Shown: positions 26,589 to 38,654 of the stretch, in pieces
Position numbering within the stretch: position 1 is the stretch's first letter
Layout: the number at the start of each line of letters is the position of its first letter
Translations under genes and position numbers: made by a program
Assembly (NCBI GenBank): GCA_016871675.1
Contig: VHCN01000027.1
Location: forward strand, 1-39,396
DNA: 39,396 nt
Direction: 5' to 3'
DNA from: Verrucomicrobiota bacterium
Lineage (GTDB): Bacteria > Verrucomicrobiota > Verrucomicrobiia > Limisphaerales > VHCN01
Notes under the pieces: model-generated
What the model saw: the letters and a program-made list of their open reading frames with translations, nothing else
Database searches by the model: none
Told to the model about the DNA's origin: nothing

Positions 26589-29003
26589 CTACGGCCACGC
26601 CAGGGTGAGTGTCGCGAACACGCCGTGCGCGGTGTAGTCGTAGGCGGCGCCGGCGGCGGGCTCTGCGTATTGGAAGAAGCCGTATTGGAGGTTGCCGGTC
26701 GCGCGCTTGCCGAGGCGGCGGGTCACCCCGGCGAGAACGCCGTGGCGCTCGAACTCCGCGCCCGCCGGCAAGCCCGTCGCGACGTTGTTCTGCCCGTAGT
26801 CCGCGCGTGAAAACGTGTGGCTTGCGCGCAAGTCGGTCGACTCGTTCAACGTCCACGTCACGCCCGCGATGGTGCTCAGCACGCCGCCGCGAAATGGCAC
26901 CACGTAGCTCGCACCGTTTTGTGCGGTCGCCAGCCGGCTTTCGGCGTAGGAGCCGCTGACGTGGAACAACCAACCGTTCCACGGTGCGAACTGGTGTCCG
27001 GCGCTCCATACGTGCGCGTCGTAATTCCCCGCGGCGATCGCGCCGCCGGGCGTCAGCGCCGGGTAGCCATCGGTCGCGGTCGTGTAATCCGAGGCCGTGA
27101 GGCGATACGCAAGCGTCGTGCGCCACCAGCTCGCGGCCCGAAGGGCGAGGCGCGCCTCGAGTTCGTCGGTGTCGGTGTCGCGCAGCCGCAGGAATCCCGG
27201 ATACGGATGCCCGGCAGCCGGGACGACCGGGTCGATGTGGGTGTAGTCGGTCCGCTTGCTCCGGTGCCGGGCCGTCACGCTCAGCGTCACGCGTTCCCAC
27301 GGCGCGGCGTGGATTCCCGCGCGCCATTCGCGCCAGTCTCCGAGCGCGTCCGTGCGCCGGAGAAAGGGCTCGTTGCCCGCGGGTTGCTGCTCGAAGATGC
27401 CGTGATCCTCCTGCTCAAAGCGGCCTTCGGCGAAGACGACCGTGTGCGGCAAACCCGTCCAGCGGAGCGCGACATGCTCGCTCACGCGGCGCACGTCCAG
27501 GTCGCTGCGCTGCGGCGAGGCATCCGGAAACGGAACGCCGAAGAACACGACCTGCCGGTCGGCATCGCCCAACCCGCGCTGGCGCGTGAACTCGCCCTGC
27601 GCCGCGGCGGACACGGTCAAGCCGCGCCACGGCCCGGCGAGGATGCTCGCGCTCATGAGATGAGATTCCCGCTCAAGCAAGAGCTGGTTCGCGAACCACC
27701 GCTCGCCATCCACCGTGGCGCCGGCGAGGTCGGTCGTCACCTGCGACAACGCTGCGTCCGCCGAAACGCGCGAGTAGAAATACGCCGCGGAGCCCGTGAG
27801 CCATTCCTTGAACTCGCGTTCGACGCGCAGCGTGTCCGTGCCCTGGAAGCCGCGATGCGCCTCGCGCGTGGACACGAACCGGTCCGGCACCGCGCCCGGC
27901 GTCGTCACGAGGCTGACCGTGCTCTTGCGCGTCGCAAGGCCGGTGAATTCCGCGCGGAAGTAGTTTTCCACGCGCGTCCCGTCGCGTTCGGCGTCGAGGT
28001 CGAACCGGATCACGTGCGTGTGCTCGGCGATTTCCTTGAACGCCGGGAAGATCGCCTTGTTCACGCCGCCCTGCGTGGAGTCGCCCCACTCGAGCGTCGA
28101 CATCGCGCCGTCGCGGAACAGGTATTCGTAACCGACCACCATCCGGGGCAACTCCGGCCGGGTGAGGCCGAATTCGATCCACGCCCGGCCCGTGTCCAGC
28201 GAAAGATCGCGCCCGAGTCTGAAGGACGGCGTGCCGAACGGCGCGTAGTCGCCGCCCGTGTCGTGGTAGTAGCGGCGGAACTGCTCGATGCCGCCGCGGA
28301 CGAATCCGGCGTCGCCGCGCTCCCACGCGAGCCTCATGCGGTAGTCGTCGTCGAGTGGCAGCGCGCGCGCGTGGAGCGTGAGGCGCGTGTCGGGGTCGGG
28401 TTGCTGCGAGAGTTCGAGGCGCTCGAGTCCCGCGCCGAGCCCTTCGCGGAAGCCCCAGTGCTCGCGGAACACACGCTCGTTTCCGCTCACGCCCACGCCG
28501 CGGATGAACATCGCGATGCCGTGGCTGAAGCTGGACGTGGCCGATGCGGCCGGCCATGCGGCGCCTGCATCGATCCACGCGCGCAGCGTTCCAATCTCCT
28601 CCCGCGTGAGCGGCTCGCCCTTTCCCTTCGGAGGCATCTGCATGTCTTCGACGAGTCCCGCGACGTAGTGGATGAGCGGACTCCTTGCGCTGTGGCCGGG
28701 AATCAGCGCCACGCCGCCCGCGCCGCCCTTGAGCGCGGACGCCGCGTTGTCGAGGCGGAAGCGGCCCTTCGGCCGCGCGGCGCCGTGGCAGCGGAGGCAG
28801 GATTTCTCGAAGATCGGCTGGATGTCGCGCGCGAACTCCACCGGCGCTTCGGACGCGGGCGGAAGTTTTGAGAAATCGGGCGGGGCGGAGAACAGACGAA
28901 GGGACGTGAGACAAAGAGCGATGGCCAGATGCGGGATGCGCGATGCGGAATGCGGAACGCTGGAAACCGGATCCTTCCCCGTGATGTCACCCCGCGCGCT
29001 CAT
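26589..29003 (-). CDS. Outer-membrane beta-barrel with N-terminal monoheme cytochrome c domain
   Basis: An 804-residue protein. A signal segment lies at about residues 24-40. Residues about 54-151 are a planctomycete-type cytochrome c (PSCyt1-like) domain: heme site CLRCH (Cys69, Cys72, His73), then [14 protein letters not shown] and the likely axial Met123 in [13 protein letters not shown], closing with [12 protein letters not shown]. From about 160 to the end the sequence is a long series of amphipathic strands with aromatic girdles ([42 protein letters not shown]) ending in [10 protein letters not shown]. Barrel size (about 640 residues) is like MtrB/DmsF porins. Its ATG lies directly after the TGA of the octaheme gene, so the pair is co-translated. 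Probable outer-membrane electron conduit component. Confidence 0.78.
28928..28962 (+). repeat. Heptamer array in the signal-peptide region of the cytochrome-porin gene
   Basis: Five 7-base units in tandem: GATGCGG, GATGCGC, GATGCGG, AATGCGG, AACGCTG. Read on the coding (reverse) strand it gives residues about 14-25 (AFRIPH-like codons: HSASRIPHL). Neighbouring sequence 28895-28927 continues a degraded 7-base rhythm. Confidence 0.55.
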
Positions 29004-36480: not shown

Positions 36481-37206
36481 CTAGCGGCCGCCGTCTTTCG
36501 GGCCGGGCCTTTCCGTTACGAGGTTGAGGATTTCCGTCGAGCATTTTTCCATGTCGAGGACGATCTTGTTCACGCGGCTCACGAGGTAATTGTATCCCGC
36601 GTGGCACGGGATCGCGATGGCAAGGCCGACGGCGGTGCAGATGAGCGCTTCCCACACCCCGCTCGCGAGTTTGCTGGTGTGCGTGAACTGCCCCTCGCTC
36701 TGGAACACGCTGAACATGCTGATGAAACCCATCACCGAACCCAGCAGGCCCATCAACGGCGCGATCTGTGCGATGGTCGCGAGCAGGTTCAGCTTCTCCT
36801 CCAGCCGCGGCACTTCCACGAGGCCGGCGCCCTCGAGCGCCTCGCGCACGCCCTCGCGCCCGCGGTCGCGCGCGAGAATGGCCGTCTTCACGAGCCGGGC
36901 GACCGGCCCGGGCGTGGCGTCGCAAATCGAGATGGCCTCGACCACGTTGTCGCGCTTGAGGACGGTGCGCACGCCGTTGAGGAACTCCGCCGAGTTGATC
37001 TGCGCGCGGTGATAGTGAAGCAGCCGCTCCACAAACACCGCGATCGCCACCGCGCTGGTGAGCAGCAGCACCCACAGCATCGGCCCGCCTGCGAAGAGCG
37101 GAAACCCCGCCGCGCCCTTCGCGGCCGATGGCACGGCATTCGTCGTCACCGCGGCCATCAGGGCGGGGGCGTTCGCGACGGCGGTAAGGATCATCGTCGG
37201 CAGCAT
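36481..37206 (-). CDS. MotA/TolQ/ExbB proton-channel family protein
   Basis: A 241-residue inner-membrane protein with three helices: one near 42-62 (GGPMLWVLLLTSAVAIAVFVERLL), and two C-terminal ones in LLATIAQIAPLMGLLGSVMGFISMF and WEALICTAVGLAIAIPCHAGYNYLV. The GLLGSVMGF and ALICTAVGLAIAIP motifs are hallmarks of ExbB/TolQ, with the conserved Thr lining the channel. The large cytoplasmic loop is conserved (AILARDRGREGVREAL). It pairs with the ExbD-like gene downstream. The promoter TTGAAC-17-TATAAC lies 6 bases before the ATG at 37206 and is embedded in a heptamer palindrome. Confidence 0.92.
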   Translation of the reverse strand: MLPTMILTAVANAPALMAAVTTNAVPSAAKGAAGFPLFAGGPMLWVLLLTSAVAIAVFVERLLHYHRAQINSAEFLNGVRTVLKRDNVVEAISICDATPGPVARLVKTAILARDRGREGVREALEGAGLVEVPRLEEKLNLLATIAQIAPLMGLLGSVMGFISMFSVFQSEGQFTHTSKLASGVWEALICTAVGLAIAIPCHAGYNYLVSRVNKIVLDMEKCSTEILNLVTERPGPKDGGR

Positions 37207-37212
37207 GGTGAG

Positions 37213-37241
37213 GTTATAGGTGGACACTTCGCGAAGTTCAA
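37213..37241 (-). promoter_or_regulatory. Predicted promoter of the ExbB/ExbD operon
   Basis: Reverse strand TTGAAC (37241-37236), 17-base spacer, TATAAC (37218-37213), then 6 bases to the ATG at 37206. The -35 box falls inside the left arm of the heptamer palindrome. Confidence 0.55.
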
Positions 37242-37330
37242 AGTTCAAAGTTCGAAGTTCCGCGCGATGCGCTCCCGGTGGCGTGGGAAACTCGGCAACT
37301 TGGAACTTGGCACTGGGAGCCTGGAACTCC
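37233..37330 (+). repeat. Inverted pair of heptamer arrays in a divergent promoter
   Basis: Left arm, four 7-base units: GAAGTTC, AAAGTTC, AAAGTTC, GAAGTTC (37233-37260). Right arm, five units: CAACTTG, GAACTTG, GCACTGG, GAGCCTG, GAACTCC (37296-37330). The right-arm units are approximate reverse complements of the left-arm units, in register, with a 35-base spacer, so a long imperfect hairpin or cruciform is possible. The arms supply the -35 boxes of the two divergent genes. Confidence 0.6.
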
Positions 37331-37335
37331 ATCTT
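37307..37335 (+). promoter_or_regulatory. Predicted promoter of the dUTPase-hpt genes
   Basis: TTGGCA (37307-37312), 17-base spacer, CATCTT (37330-37335), then 6 bases to the ATG at 37342. The -35 (5 of 6) lies in the right arm of the heptamer palindrome. The -10 is weak. Confidence 0.45.
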
Positions 37336-37341
37336 TCGCGC

Positions 37342-37722
37342 ATGGAACGACCCGACCAGCTTCGCGAACTGTTCCGCATGCAGCAGTCGCTCAACGAACG
37401 CATCGGCGTCCGCACCGACGGCATGAGCGAGGAGGAGAAGACCAAGTGGGTGCTCAACTACTGCCGCGCGATGTCCCAGGAGATGGCCGAGCTCACCGAC
37501 AGCGTCCCGTGGAAGTGGTGGGCGAAGTATCAGAAGTTCGACGAGCAGAACGCGCGCGTCGAGGTGGTGGACCTGTTCCACTTCCTCATCAGCCTCGCGC
37601 AAGTGCTGGGCATGAGCGCGGACGACGTCTTCGCCGCCTACTGCAAGAAGAACGAGGTGAACTTCAGGCGGCAGGACACCGGCTACGCGGTGAAGGACGA
37701 GCACGACTCGAAGCACATCTGA
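37342..37722 (+). CDS. Dimeric dUTPase-like (dUTPase_2/MazG-fold) protein
   Basis: A 126-residue all-alpha NTP pyrophosphatase-fold protein. The metal-binding acidic motifs are visible: Glu47-x-x-Glu50 in QEMAEL, and Glu74-x-x-Asp77 in ARVEVVDLFHFLISLAQVLG. The conserved aromatic stretch TDSVPWKWWAK and the C-terminal AAYCKKNEVNFRRQDTGY match dimeric dUTPases (PF08761), which hydrolyse dUTP to dUMP and so keep uracil out of DNA. It is followed by hpt after 23 bases, giving a nucleotide-metabolism pair. No trimeric Dut is seen in the window. Confidence 0.85.
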   Translation: MERPDQLRELFRMQQSLNERIGVRTDGMSEEEKTKWVLNYCRAMSQEMAELTDSVPWKWWAKYQKFDEQNARVEVVDLFHFLISLAQVLGMSADDVFAAYCKKNEVNFRRQDTGYAVKDEHDSKHI

Positions 37723-38331: not shown

Positions 38332-38401
38332 GCGCAGGGCGCAATGCGTAAAACGTAACCTGAGCCGACCGCACTTACGTTTTACGAGTTACGCATTACG
38401 T
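38332..38401 (+). repeat. Inverted pair of heptamer arrays between hpt and moaD
   Basis: Left arm: GCGCAGG, GCGCAAT, GCGTAAA, ACGTAAC (38332-38359). Spacer of 14 bases. Right arm: CTTACGT, TTTACGA, GTTACGC, ATTACGT (38374-38401). The right arm read in reverse complement is ACGTAAT, GCGTAAC, TCGTAAA, ACGTAAG; unit by unit it matches the left arm at about 20 of 28 positions, best near the loop. The strict 7-base period is the same as at 37233-37330. It ends 7 bases before the moaD GTG and may carry its -10 (TACGTT, 38397-38402). Confidence 0.6.
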
Positions 38402-38408
38402 TTCCACT

Positions 38409-38654
38409 GTGACCATCCGGATACAATTCTACTCCTACTTCGCCGACCTGACCGGCTGCGGGCAGGCGGGTGAGGAGTTGCAGGCGGGTGCGACTCTCGG
38501 CGACCTGATGCTTCGCCTGCACGCGCGCTTCCCGAAGCTCGCCGCGATGGACAAGTCCACGCTCATTGCCGTCGGCGTCGAGTATCAGCCGCGCAGTTAC
38601 GAGCTGAAGGACGGCGACGTGGTGAGCCTGTTCCCGCCGGTGCAGGGCGGATGA
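38409..38654 (+). CDS. moaD: Molybdopterin synthase sulfur-carrier subunit MoaD
   Basis: An 81-residue ubiquitin-like protein ending in Gly-Gly (SLFPPVQGG), whose C-terminal Gly is thiocarboxylated and donates sulfur to precursor Z for molybdopterin. The core (RIQFYSYFADLTG, then LKDGDVVSLFPPVQGG) is canonical. Start is GTG at 38409, 7 bases after the heptamer palindrome. MoaE follows after 21 bases; the two make up molybdopterin synthase. No other moa, mog or moe gene is in the window. Confidence 0.94.
   Translation: MTIRIQFYSYFADLTGCGQAGEELQAGATLGDLMLRLHARFPKLAAMDKSTLIAVGVEYQPRSYELKDGDVVSLFPPVQGG

Follow-up and report, generated by a model that had tools for sequence, protein, structure and literature searches.

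Heptad repeat arrays at the -35 position of a putative divergent exbB/dut promoter pair in Limisphaerales

Heptameric repeats close to start codons are known from several bacterial phyla, and their function has not been established. One such class is the TAACTGA direct repeats of Beggiatoaceae, Cyanobacteria, and Bacteroidetes (PMC4679880), which resemble the arrays reported here in occurring as 2-6 heptameric copies, mostly intergenic and close to and oriented toward start codons, in varying by 7-nt indels between strains, and in being accompanied by few Shine-Dalgarno sites. In contrast, the TAACTGA repeats were proposed as post-transcriptional sites ending beside the start codon (PMC4679880), whereas in the present arrays a -10 box lies between the array and the start and the unit itself holds the predicted -35. 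With TTTGAAC as its unit, the present repeat is not assigned to the TAACTGA family.

Heptameric SSRs have also been documented, among them GGGAATC from Xanthomonas and, in Nostoc, GGGGA(T/C)T (PMC4692102), together with the cyanobacterial STRR sequences, and all of them share with the present arrays a genome-wide intergenic distribution and a variable unit number. The Xanthomonas and Nostoc repeats differ in being G-rich quadruplex candidates, and the accessible part of that report gives no register with promoter boxes; slippage is offered there as a guess for heptamer growth. In the same phylum as the window, Cappable-seq of Akkermansia muciniphila revealed leaderless transcription for about 10% of starts (PMC4782308), likewise with -35 and -10 boxes and transcription beginning at the start codon, although the starts were measured there and are inferred here, and heptad arrays are not reported in the accessible part of that study. 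Tandem repeats inside bacterial promoters are familiar from phase-variable systems of the nadA type (PMC2791445), in which unit changes shift the spacing of promoter elements; in the heptad arrays, by contrast, the unit carries the -35, so the spacing should be kept. The open-access literature searched yielded nothing on Verrucomicrobia heptamers or on a repeat-borne -35 closer than these systems, and no account of a heptad unit holding a -35 in register with a -10 box and a start codon.

The exbB/dut intergenic region

The window, i.e., the whole stretch of 39,396 nucleotides analysed here, corresponds to contig C27 in a draft genome of 3.6 Mb, and the nearest relatives of its dUTPase are found in assemblies of Verrucomicrobia subdivision 3, Limisphaerales, and Pedosphaera. 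A minus-strand exbB-exbD pair and a plus-strand dUTPase_2 gene with a phosphoribosyltransferase gene are separated by 135 bases (Table 1), and the flanking genes are matched by the Pfam families MotA_ExbB, ExbD, dUTPase_2, and Pribosyltran. Alignment of the dUTPase with 80 relatives begins at residue 1 in nearly all of them. An earlier sequence-only reading had described four AAAGTTC-like heptamers opposed to an inverted array of five GAACTTG-like ones, with both -35 boxes inside the arrays, 17-nt spacers, and -10 boxes six bases before the ATGs; the letters and distances of boxes, spacers, and arrays were re-read by script and agree with that description. The gap between the arrays amounts to 29 bases in the register used here and about 35 in the earlier one.

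Table 1. Features of the exbB/dut intergenic region, in coordinates of the window
Feature	Position	Strand	Basis and remarks
exbB (MotA/TolQ/ExbB proton channel family)	36484..37206	-	Pfam MotA_ExbB 2.9e-30; ATG 37206-37204, in relatives mostly 6-7 nt downstream of a conserved TATAAN
Predicted -10 box of exbB, TATAAC	37213..37218	-	6 nt before ATG; script re-read and relatives
Predicted -35 box of exbB, TTGAAC	37236..37241	-	Within last full heptad; spacer 17; relatives
Left heptad array, GCGGAAC-TTCGAAC-TTTGAAC-TTTGAAC	37236..37263	-	Four heptads, toward exbB
Right degenerate heptad array, CGGCAAC-TTGGAAC-TTGGCAC-TGGGAGC-CTGGAAC	37293..37327	+	Five heptads, toward dut
Predicted -35 box of dut, TTGGCA	37307..37312	+	Within third right heptad; spacer 17; dut logo
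Predicted -10 box of dut, CATCTT	37330..37335	+	Followed by six bases (TCGCGC) and the ATG; dut logo
dut (dUTPase_2 family)	37342..37722	+	Pfam dUTPase_2 1.7e-25; ATG 37342

The left array clearly exceeds chance expectation; taken alone, the right array is weak. The window contains 6 copies of AAGTTCNAAGTTC with at most two mismatches, compared with an expectation of 1.0, a number that 100 shuffles never attained. Tandem Repeats Finder detects both arrays, one with a score of 47 at 95% matches and the other with a score of 36 at 68%. Of 32,843 intergenic windows of the own genome, 19, at five places, reach the left array in lag-7 identity; for the right array the number is 241 of 30,737. The dut -10 box agrees with TATAAT in just 3 of 6 bases, and a naive promoter scan of the site detected neither the exbB nor the dut promoter; the support for both comes from relatives.

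Conservation of the promoter boxes

The divergent exbB/dut order is retained in about half of the relatives. For exbB, 37 loci including the window were compared, most of them without an array, and 27 exhibited a box resembling a -10 at a distance of 5-7 bases from the ATG, combined with a -35 at a spacer of 16-17; the search took the best-scoring site, and weak boxes may be chance. Within these 27 loci, exactly 6 nt separate the -10 from the ATG in 20, the spacer is 16 in 20 and 17 in 7, and the -35 is an exact TTGAAC in 12 and matches it in at least 5 of 6 positions in 21. Relatives devoid of the array retain TATAAN-N6-ATG. Alignment of 17 exbB promoters on their -10 revealed T, T, and T at frequencies of 0.94, 1.00, and 0.88 at positions -8 to -6 relative to the -35, and C, T, T, T, G, A, and A at 0.82-1.00 at positions -2 to +4, giving a consensus -35 region of TTTGnnC-TTTGAAC with no conservation farther upstream.

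The dut logo, constructed from 79 loci, displays T (78%), T (54%), and G (51%) at -35 to -33, an [AT]AT--T box spanning -12 to -7 (A 63% at -11, T 52% at -10, T 72% at -7), and C at -1 in 87%. In addition, TT occurs at -42/-41 in 71% of these loci, seven bases above the TT of the -35; it parallels the TTTG found at the same distance above the -35 of exbB, and a second in-phase contact is possible at this place.

Since array-free relatives keep the same boxes, both promoters appear to be ancestral: the predicted exbB and dut promoters predate the array, and the array in the window is an elaboration of the putative exbB promoter. The earlier proposal that the heptads carry the -35s of two divergent promoters is supported, and both -10/-35 pairs are conserved in relatives. 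The companion idea that the arrays create or supply promoters needs correction: the boxes persist in array-free relatives, and the array, instead of having created the promoters, is better described as having grown on them.

Single-gene histories point in the same direction. Genome G089, from another family, carries an independent six-unit array at an exbB that is not next to dut, followed by TATAAA and seven bases to the ATG. Its genus sister G147 reads TTTGAAC-TTTGACC-TTTGAAC-TTTAAAC-CCGGAAC-AC-TATAAA at exbB, where an intact TTGAAC is found in the unit at spacer 16 and the two units within the spacer have decayed. At ffh, four TTTGAAC units are present in G099 and G069, and G120 mixes TTTCAAC with TTTGAAC, repeating the G147 pattern in that TTGAAC is retained at spacer 16 and the units within the spacer have decayed. 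Both pairs of genus sisters (G089/G147 at exbB, G099/G120 at ffh) differ in unit number and integrity. A comparison of three genes, which to judge by their proteins are ffh, gatC, and polX, covered about 30 families; TAnnnT stands at -12/-13 in 28/32, 20/30, and 13/29 loci, respectively, against about 1.2 by shuffle, and this -10 is retained with or without arrays. In one polX locus (L295), a run of TTTGGAC occupies the same place as the arrays. Across these loci, arrays are gained and lost and the letters of their units drift, while the predicted core promoter stays constant.

The genome of the window was sampled over about 440 kb of stretches, with genes called by a home-made caller. TAnnnT peaks exactly at -12 from the start, where 10 of the 110 divergent genes have it against 3 at the runner-up offset, and CTTG at -38..-36 was observed 24 times against 8.5 expected among non-array genes; the two together are a predicted leaderless promoter signature that is genome-wide. 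The 110 divergent starts also display C at -1 in 70% and almost no Shine-Dalgarno signal, in agreement with leaderless starts. Orthologs of exbB, dut, ffh, and gatC keep their -10 hexamer at about 6 nt from the start codon, and the -35 falls within a spacer range of 16-18 in exbB relatives and, as CTTG, in the own genome, the arrangement anticipated for leaderless promoters of the sigma-70 type.

Heptad arrays in the genome and across the order

All of the 14 most over-represented intergenic 7-mers of the own genome are rotations of TTTGAAC or its complement, and exact two-unit sites number 18 against 1 for a reversed control. Such tandem 7-nt units, dispersed through intergenic DNA above chance, have the character of heptameric SSRs of the STRR or TAACTGA type. 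Judging from the N-termini, two-unit sites lie upstream of genes that we presume to encode SAICAR synthetase, MutS, MurJ, tryptophanyl-tRNA synthetase, and RNase PH, and a second divergent pair (L007) has the back-to-back layout as well. Several own-genome arrays have no good -10 at -12. The unrestricted distances from TTGAAC to ATG displayed no peak at 35 in the own genome because most TTGAAC lie within genes, and restriction to intergenic DNA resolved the signal. Lag-7 autocorrelation over the whole intergenic own-genome sample gave no excess; in relatives, period 7 appears solely as local runs, two of the nine lag-7 regions being runs of N.

Across the order, three-unit arrays (TTGAACTTTGAACTTTGAAC) were found in 30 of 146 genomes with few control matches, and in 4 of 287 genomes elsewhere in the phylum; the order-wide set comprises about 80 array sites, sampled by an exact three-unit match that favours young arrays. 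Starts outside the exbB/dut set were modelled by a home-made coding-potential caller that is blind to the repeat. With genome G018 set aside, 44 of 56 intergenic, non-redundant arrays face a same-strand start within 120 nt, whereas the 12 that do not face a start have no box within 36 nt. Arrays between divergent genes are nearer to the start they face in 22 of 25 cases, and those in tandem arrangements read with the genes 21 times and against them 8 times.

The 44 start-facing arrays are moreover locked in phase. TAnnnT follows the last TTGAAC mostly at offsets of 1-2 or 9-10, corresponding to a spacer of 15-17 when counted from a unit one or two places higher in the array, and mostly 6-7 bases then lead to the start. 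Three adjacent phases (1-3) accommodate 22 of 23 boxes (shuffle mean 5.1, maximum 14 in 2000), and in 25 of 31 cases the distance from the last unit to the start codon is a multiple of 7, give or take 1 nt (p=2e-5). A strict test for TAnnnT and start together was passed by 15 of 45 start-facing arrays. This order-wide register with -10 box and start codon sustains the earlier view that the element is not passive filler to the extent that arrays are not placed at random; a minority lie inside called genes, read the wrong way, or, in G018, are part of a dispersed repeat.

In G018 (L141, L187-L201), heptad arrays form one edge of this dispersed repeat (AGGGCTCTGCGTGCG...GGCTTGGGCAATTCCCTC) and are unlinked to start codons. 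In G017 (L136, L177), unlike the outward pair of the window, inward-facing arrays (TTGAAC ... GTTCAA) flank a GC-rich centre and are possibly hairpin elements. Period-7 arrays of unrelated units, namely TTGCCGA, CACTCGT, TTTACGA, TACTGAC, TAAATCG, and GGATGAA, occur in relatives (L027, L035, L039, L056, L097, L102), and the favoured tandem period in relatives is seven, whatever the sequence. The window itself contains a further heptad array, TTACGTT-TTACGAG-TTACGCA-TTACGTT at 38375-38402, upstream of a GTG at 38409, the last unit of which includes TACGTT at -12. An inverted copy, GTAAAACGTAA, lies opposite it past the end of the phosphoribosyltransferase gene (38342-38402, DNA fold z -2.9), and a GATGCGG-like period-7 run occupies called intergenic DNA at 28928-28955.

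Proposed mechanism and its alternatives

We consider it likely that the exbB/dut region houses a divergent pair of sigma-70-type promoters, the -35s of which lie inside slip-tolerant heptad arrays and the transcripts of which are probably leaderless. Both promoters would be recognised by the housekeeping sigma factor, and transcription would probably begin with the A of each ATG or a base next to it. The starting point would be a promoter of the leaderless type whose -35 region reads TTTGnnC-TTTGAAC, as present in loci without an array; the exbB -35 would derive from this ancestral two-heptad box, enlarged by slippage in steps of 7 bases. Slippage would be tolerated because every unit carries TTGAAC and the spacing to the -10 is kept: gain or loss of a whole unit would re-present TTGAAC at a spacer of 16-17, which a change of 3-4 bases would not. 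The recurrence of this heptad at a fixed spacing at many genes of the order suggests that an array can expand within a promoter and leave it functional. The inverted arrays that the sequence-only reading had taken for a heptamer palindrome do exist, but a function of the palindrome as such is unnecessary; its look would follow from the divergence of the two genes, each array reading toward its own gene.

Extra units might in addition supply upstream TTTG contacts and alter promoter strength. The broader reading, a slip-tolerant -35 throughout Limisphaerales in which copy number alters the TTTG boxes at -42, -49, and beyond that are seen by RNA polymerase or a partner protein, and thereby tunes housekeeping genes, is put forward tentatively, as somewhat less probable than its negation.

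A neutral history in which the extra units are inert is a strong rival to such tuning, and its chances seem evenly balanced. Heptamers would slip-expand from any near-duplicate seed, -35 regions like TTTGnnC-TTTGAAC acting as one, with the promoters left standing and the register kept by descent. The existence of many different heptads (TTTGGAC, TCACTCG, TTTACGA, TACTGAC), the preference of relatives for period 7, the arrays away from promoters, and the over-representation of heptameric repeats in bacteria, for which slippage is proposed (PMC4692102), are in favour of it. Conservation of the TTTG seven bases above the -35 in array-free exbB promoters, and the two cases in which the intact unit among decayed neighbours is the one at spacer 16, weigh against it and are not decisive.

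That the arrays act in RNA, as the binding site of a translational regulator in the leader, in the manner suggested for the Beggiatoaceae TAACTGA repeats, seems quite improbable. The arrays do lie just upstream of start codons, face them, and are without Shine-Dalgarno sites; however, a conserved -10 sits between array and ATG, 6-7 nt from the start, and the array should consequently stay untranscribed from this promoter.

Known -35 sequences of the ECF type are similar to GAACTT, and LexA sites to GTTC half-sites. Since the unit includes GAAC(TT), it could be read as an operator or as the -35 of an alternative (ECF) sigma factor, which we hold to be similarly doubtful: the -10 is TAnnnT, the orthologous -35 regions share CTTG/TTTG (TTTGCAC, CTTGTCAA, TTTGGAC) and not GAAC, the genes concerned are unrelated housekeeping genes, and GTTC-N4-GAAC or GTTC-N7-GTTC spacing is missing from the array by reading. 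The LexA-like and ECF readings were set aside on these grounds.

That the opposed arrays function as a hairpin in DNA or RNA, be it a cruciform, a terminator, or an element of the REP type, is very unlikely, for although they form 27-nt arms of 74% complementarity with a DNA fold z of -2.2, their RNA fold is of insignificant stability (z -0.75), an intrinsic terminator with a T-tract tail was sought at the site and not found, the two halves differ in consensus, and most arrays elsewhere have one orientation toward one gene; an intrinsic terminator or stable hairpin was rejected accordingly. An insertion or REP-like mobile element was discarded as well, as own-genome matches extend over the heptads only and the flanks are not common to the copies; genome G018 is different in this respect.

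Under the preferred reading of a -35 embedded in slip-tolerant heptads, the arrays described here can be aligned in register with one particular promoter element, so that a merely descriptive curiosity becomes a mechanism open to test, and slip tolerance offers a reason why heptamers can adjoin essential genes. The results also indicate that leaderless transcription may be common in this largely uncultured order, which is relevant to start-codon annotation.
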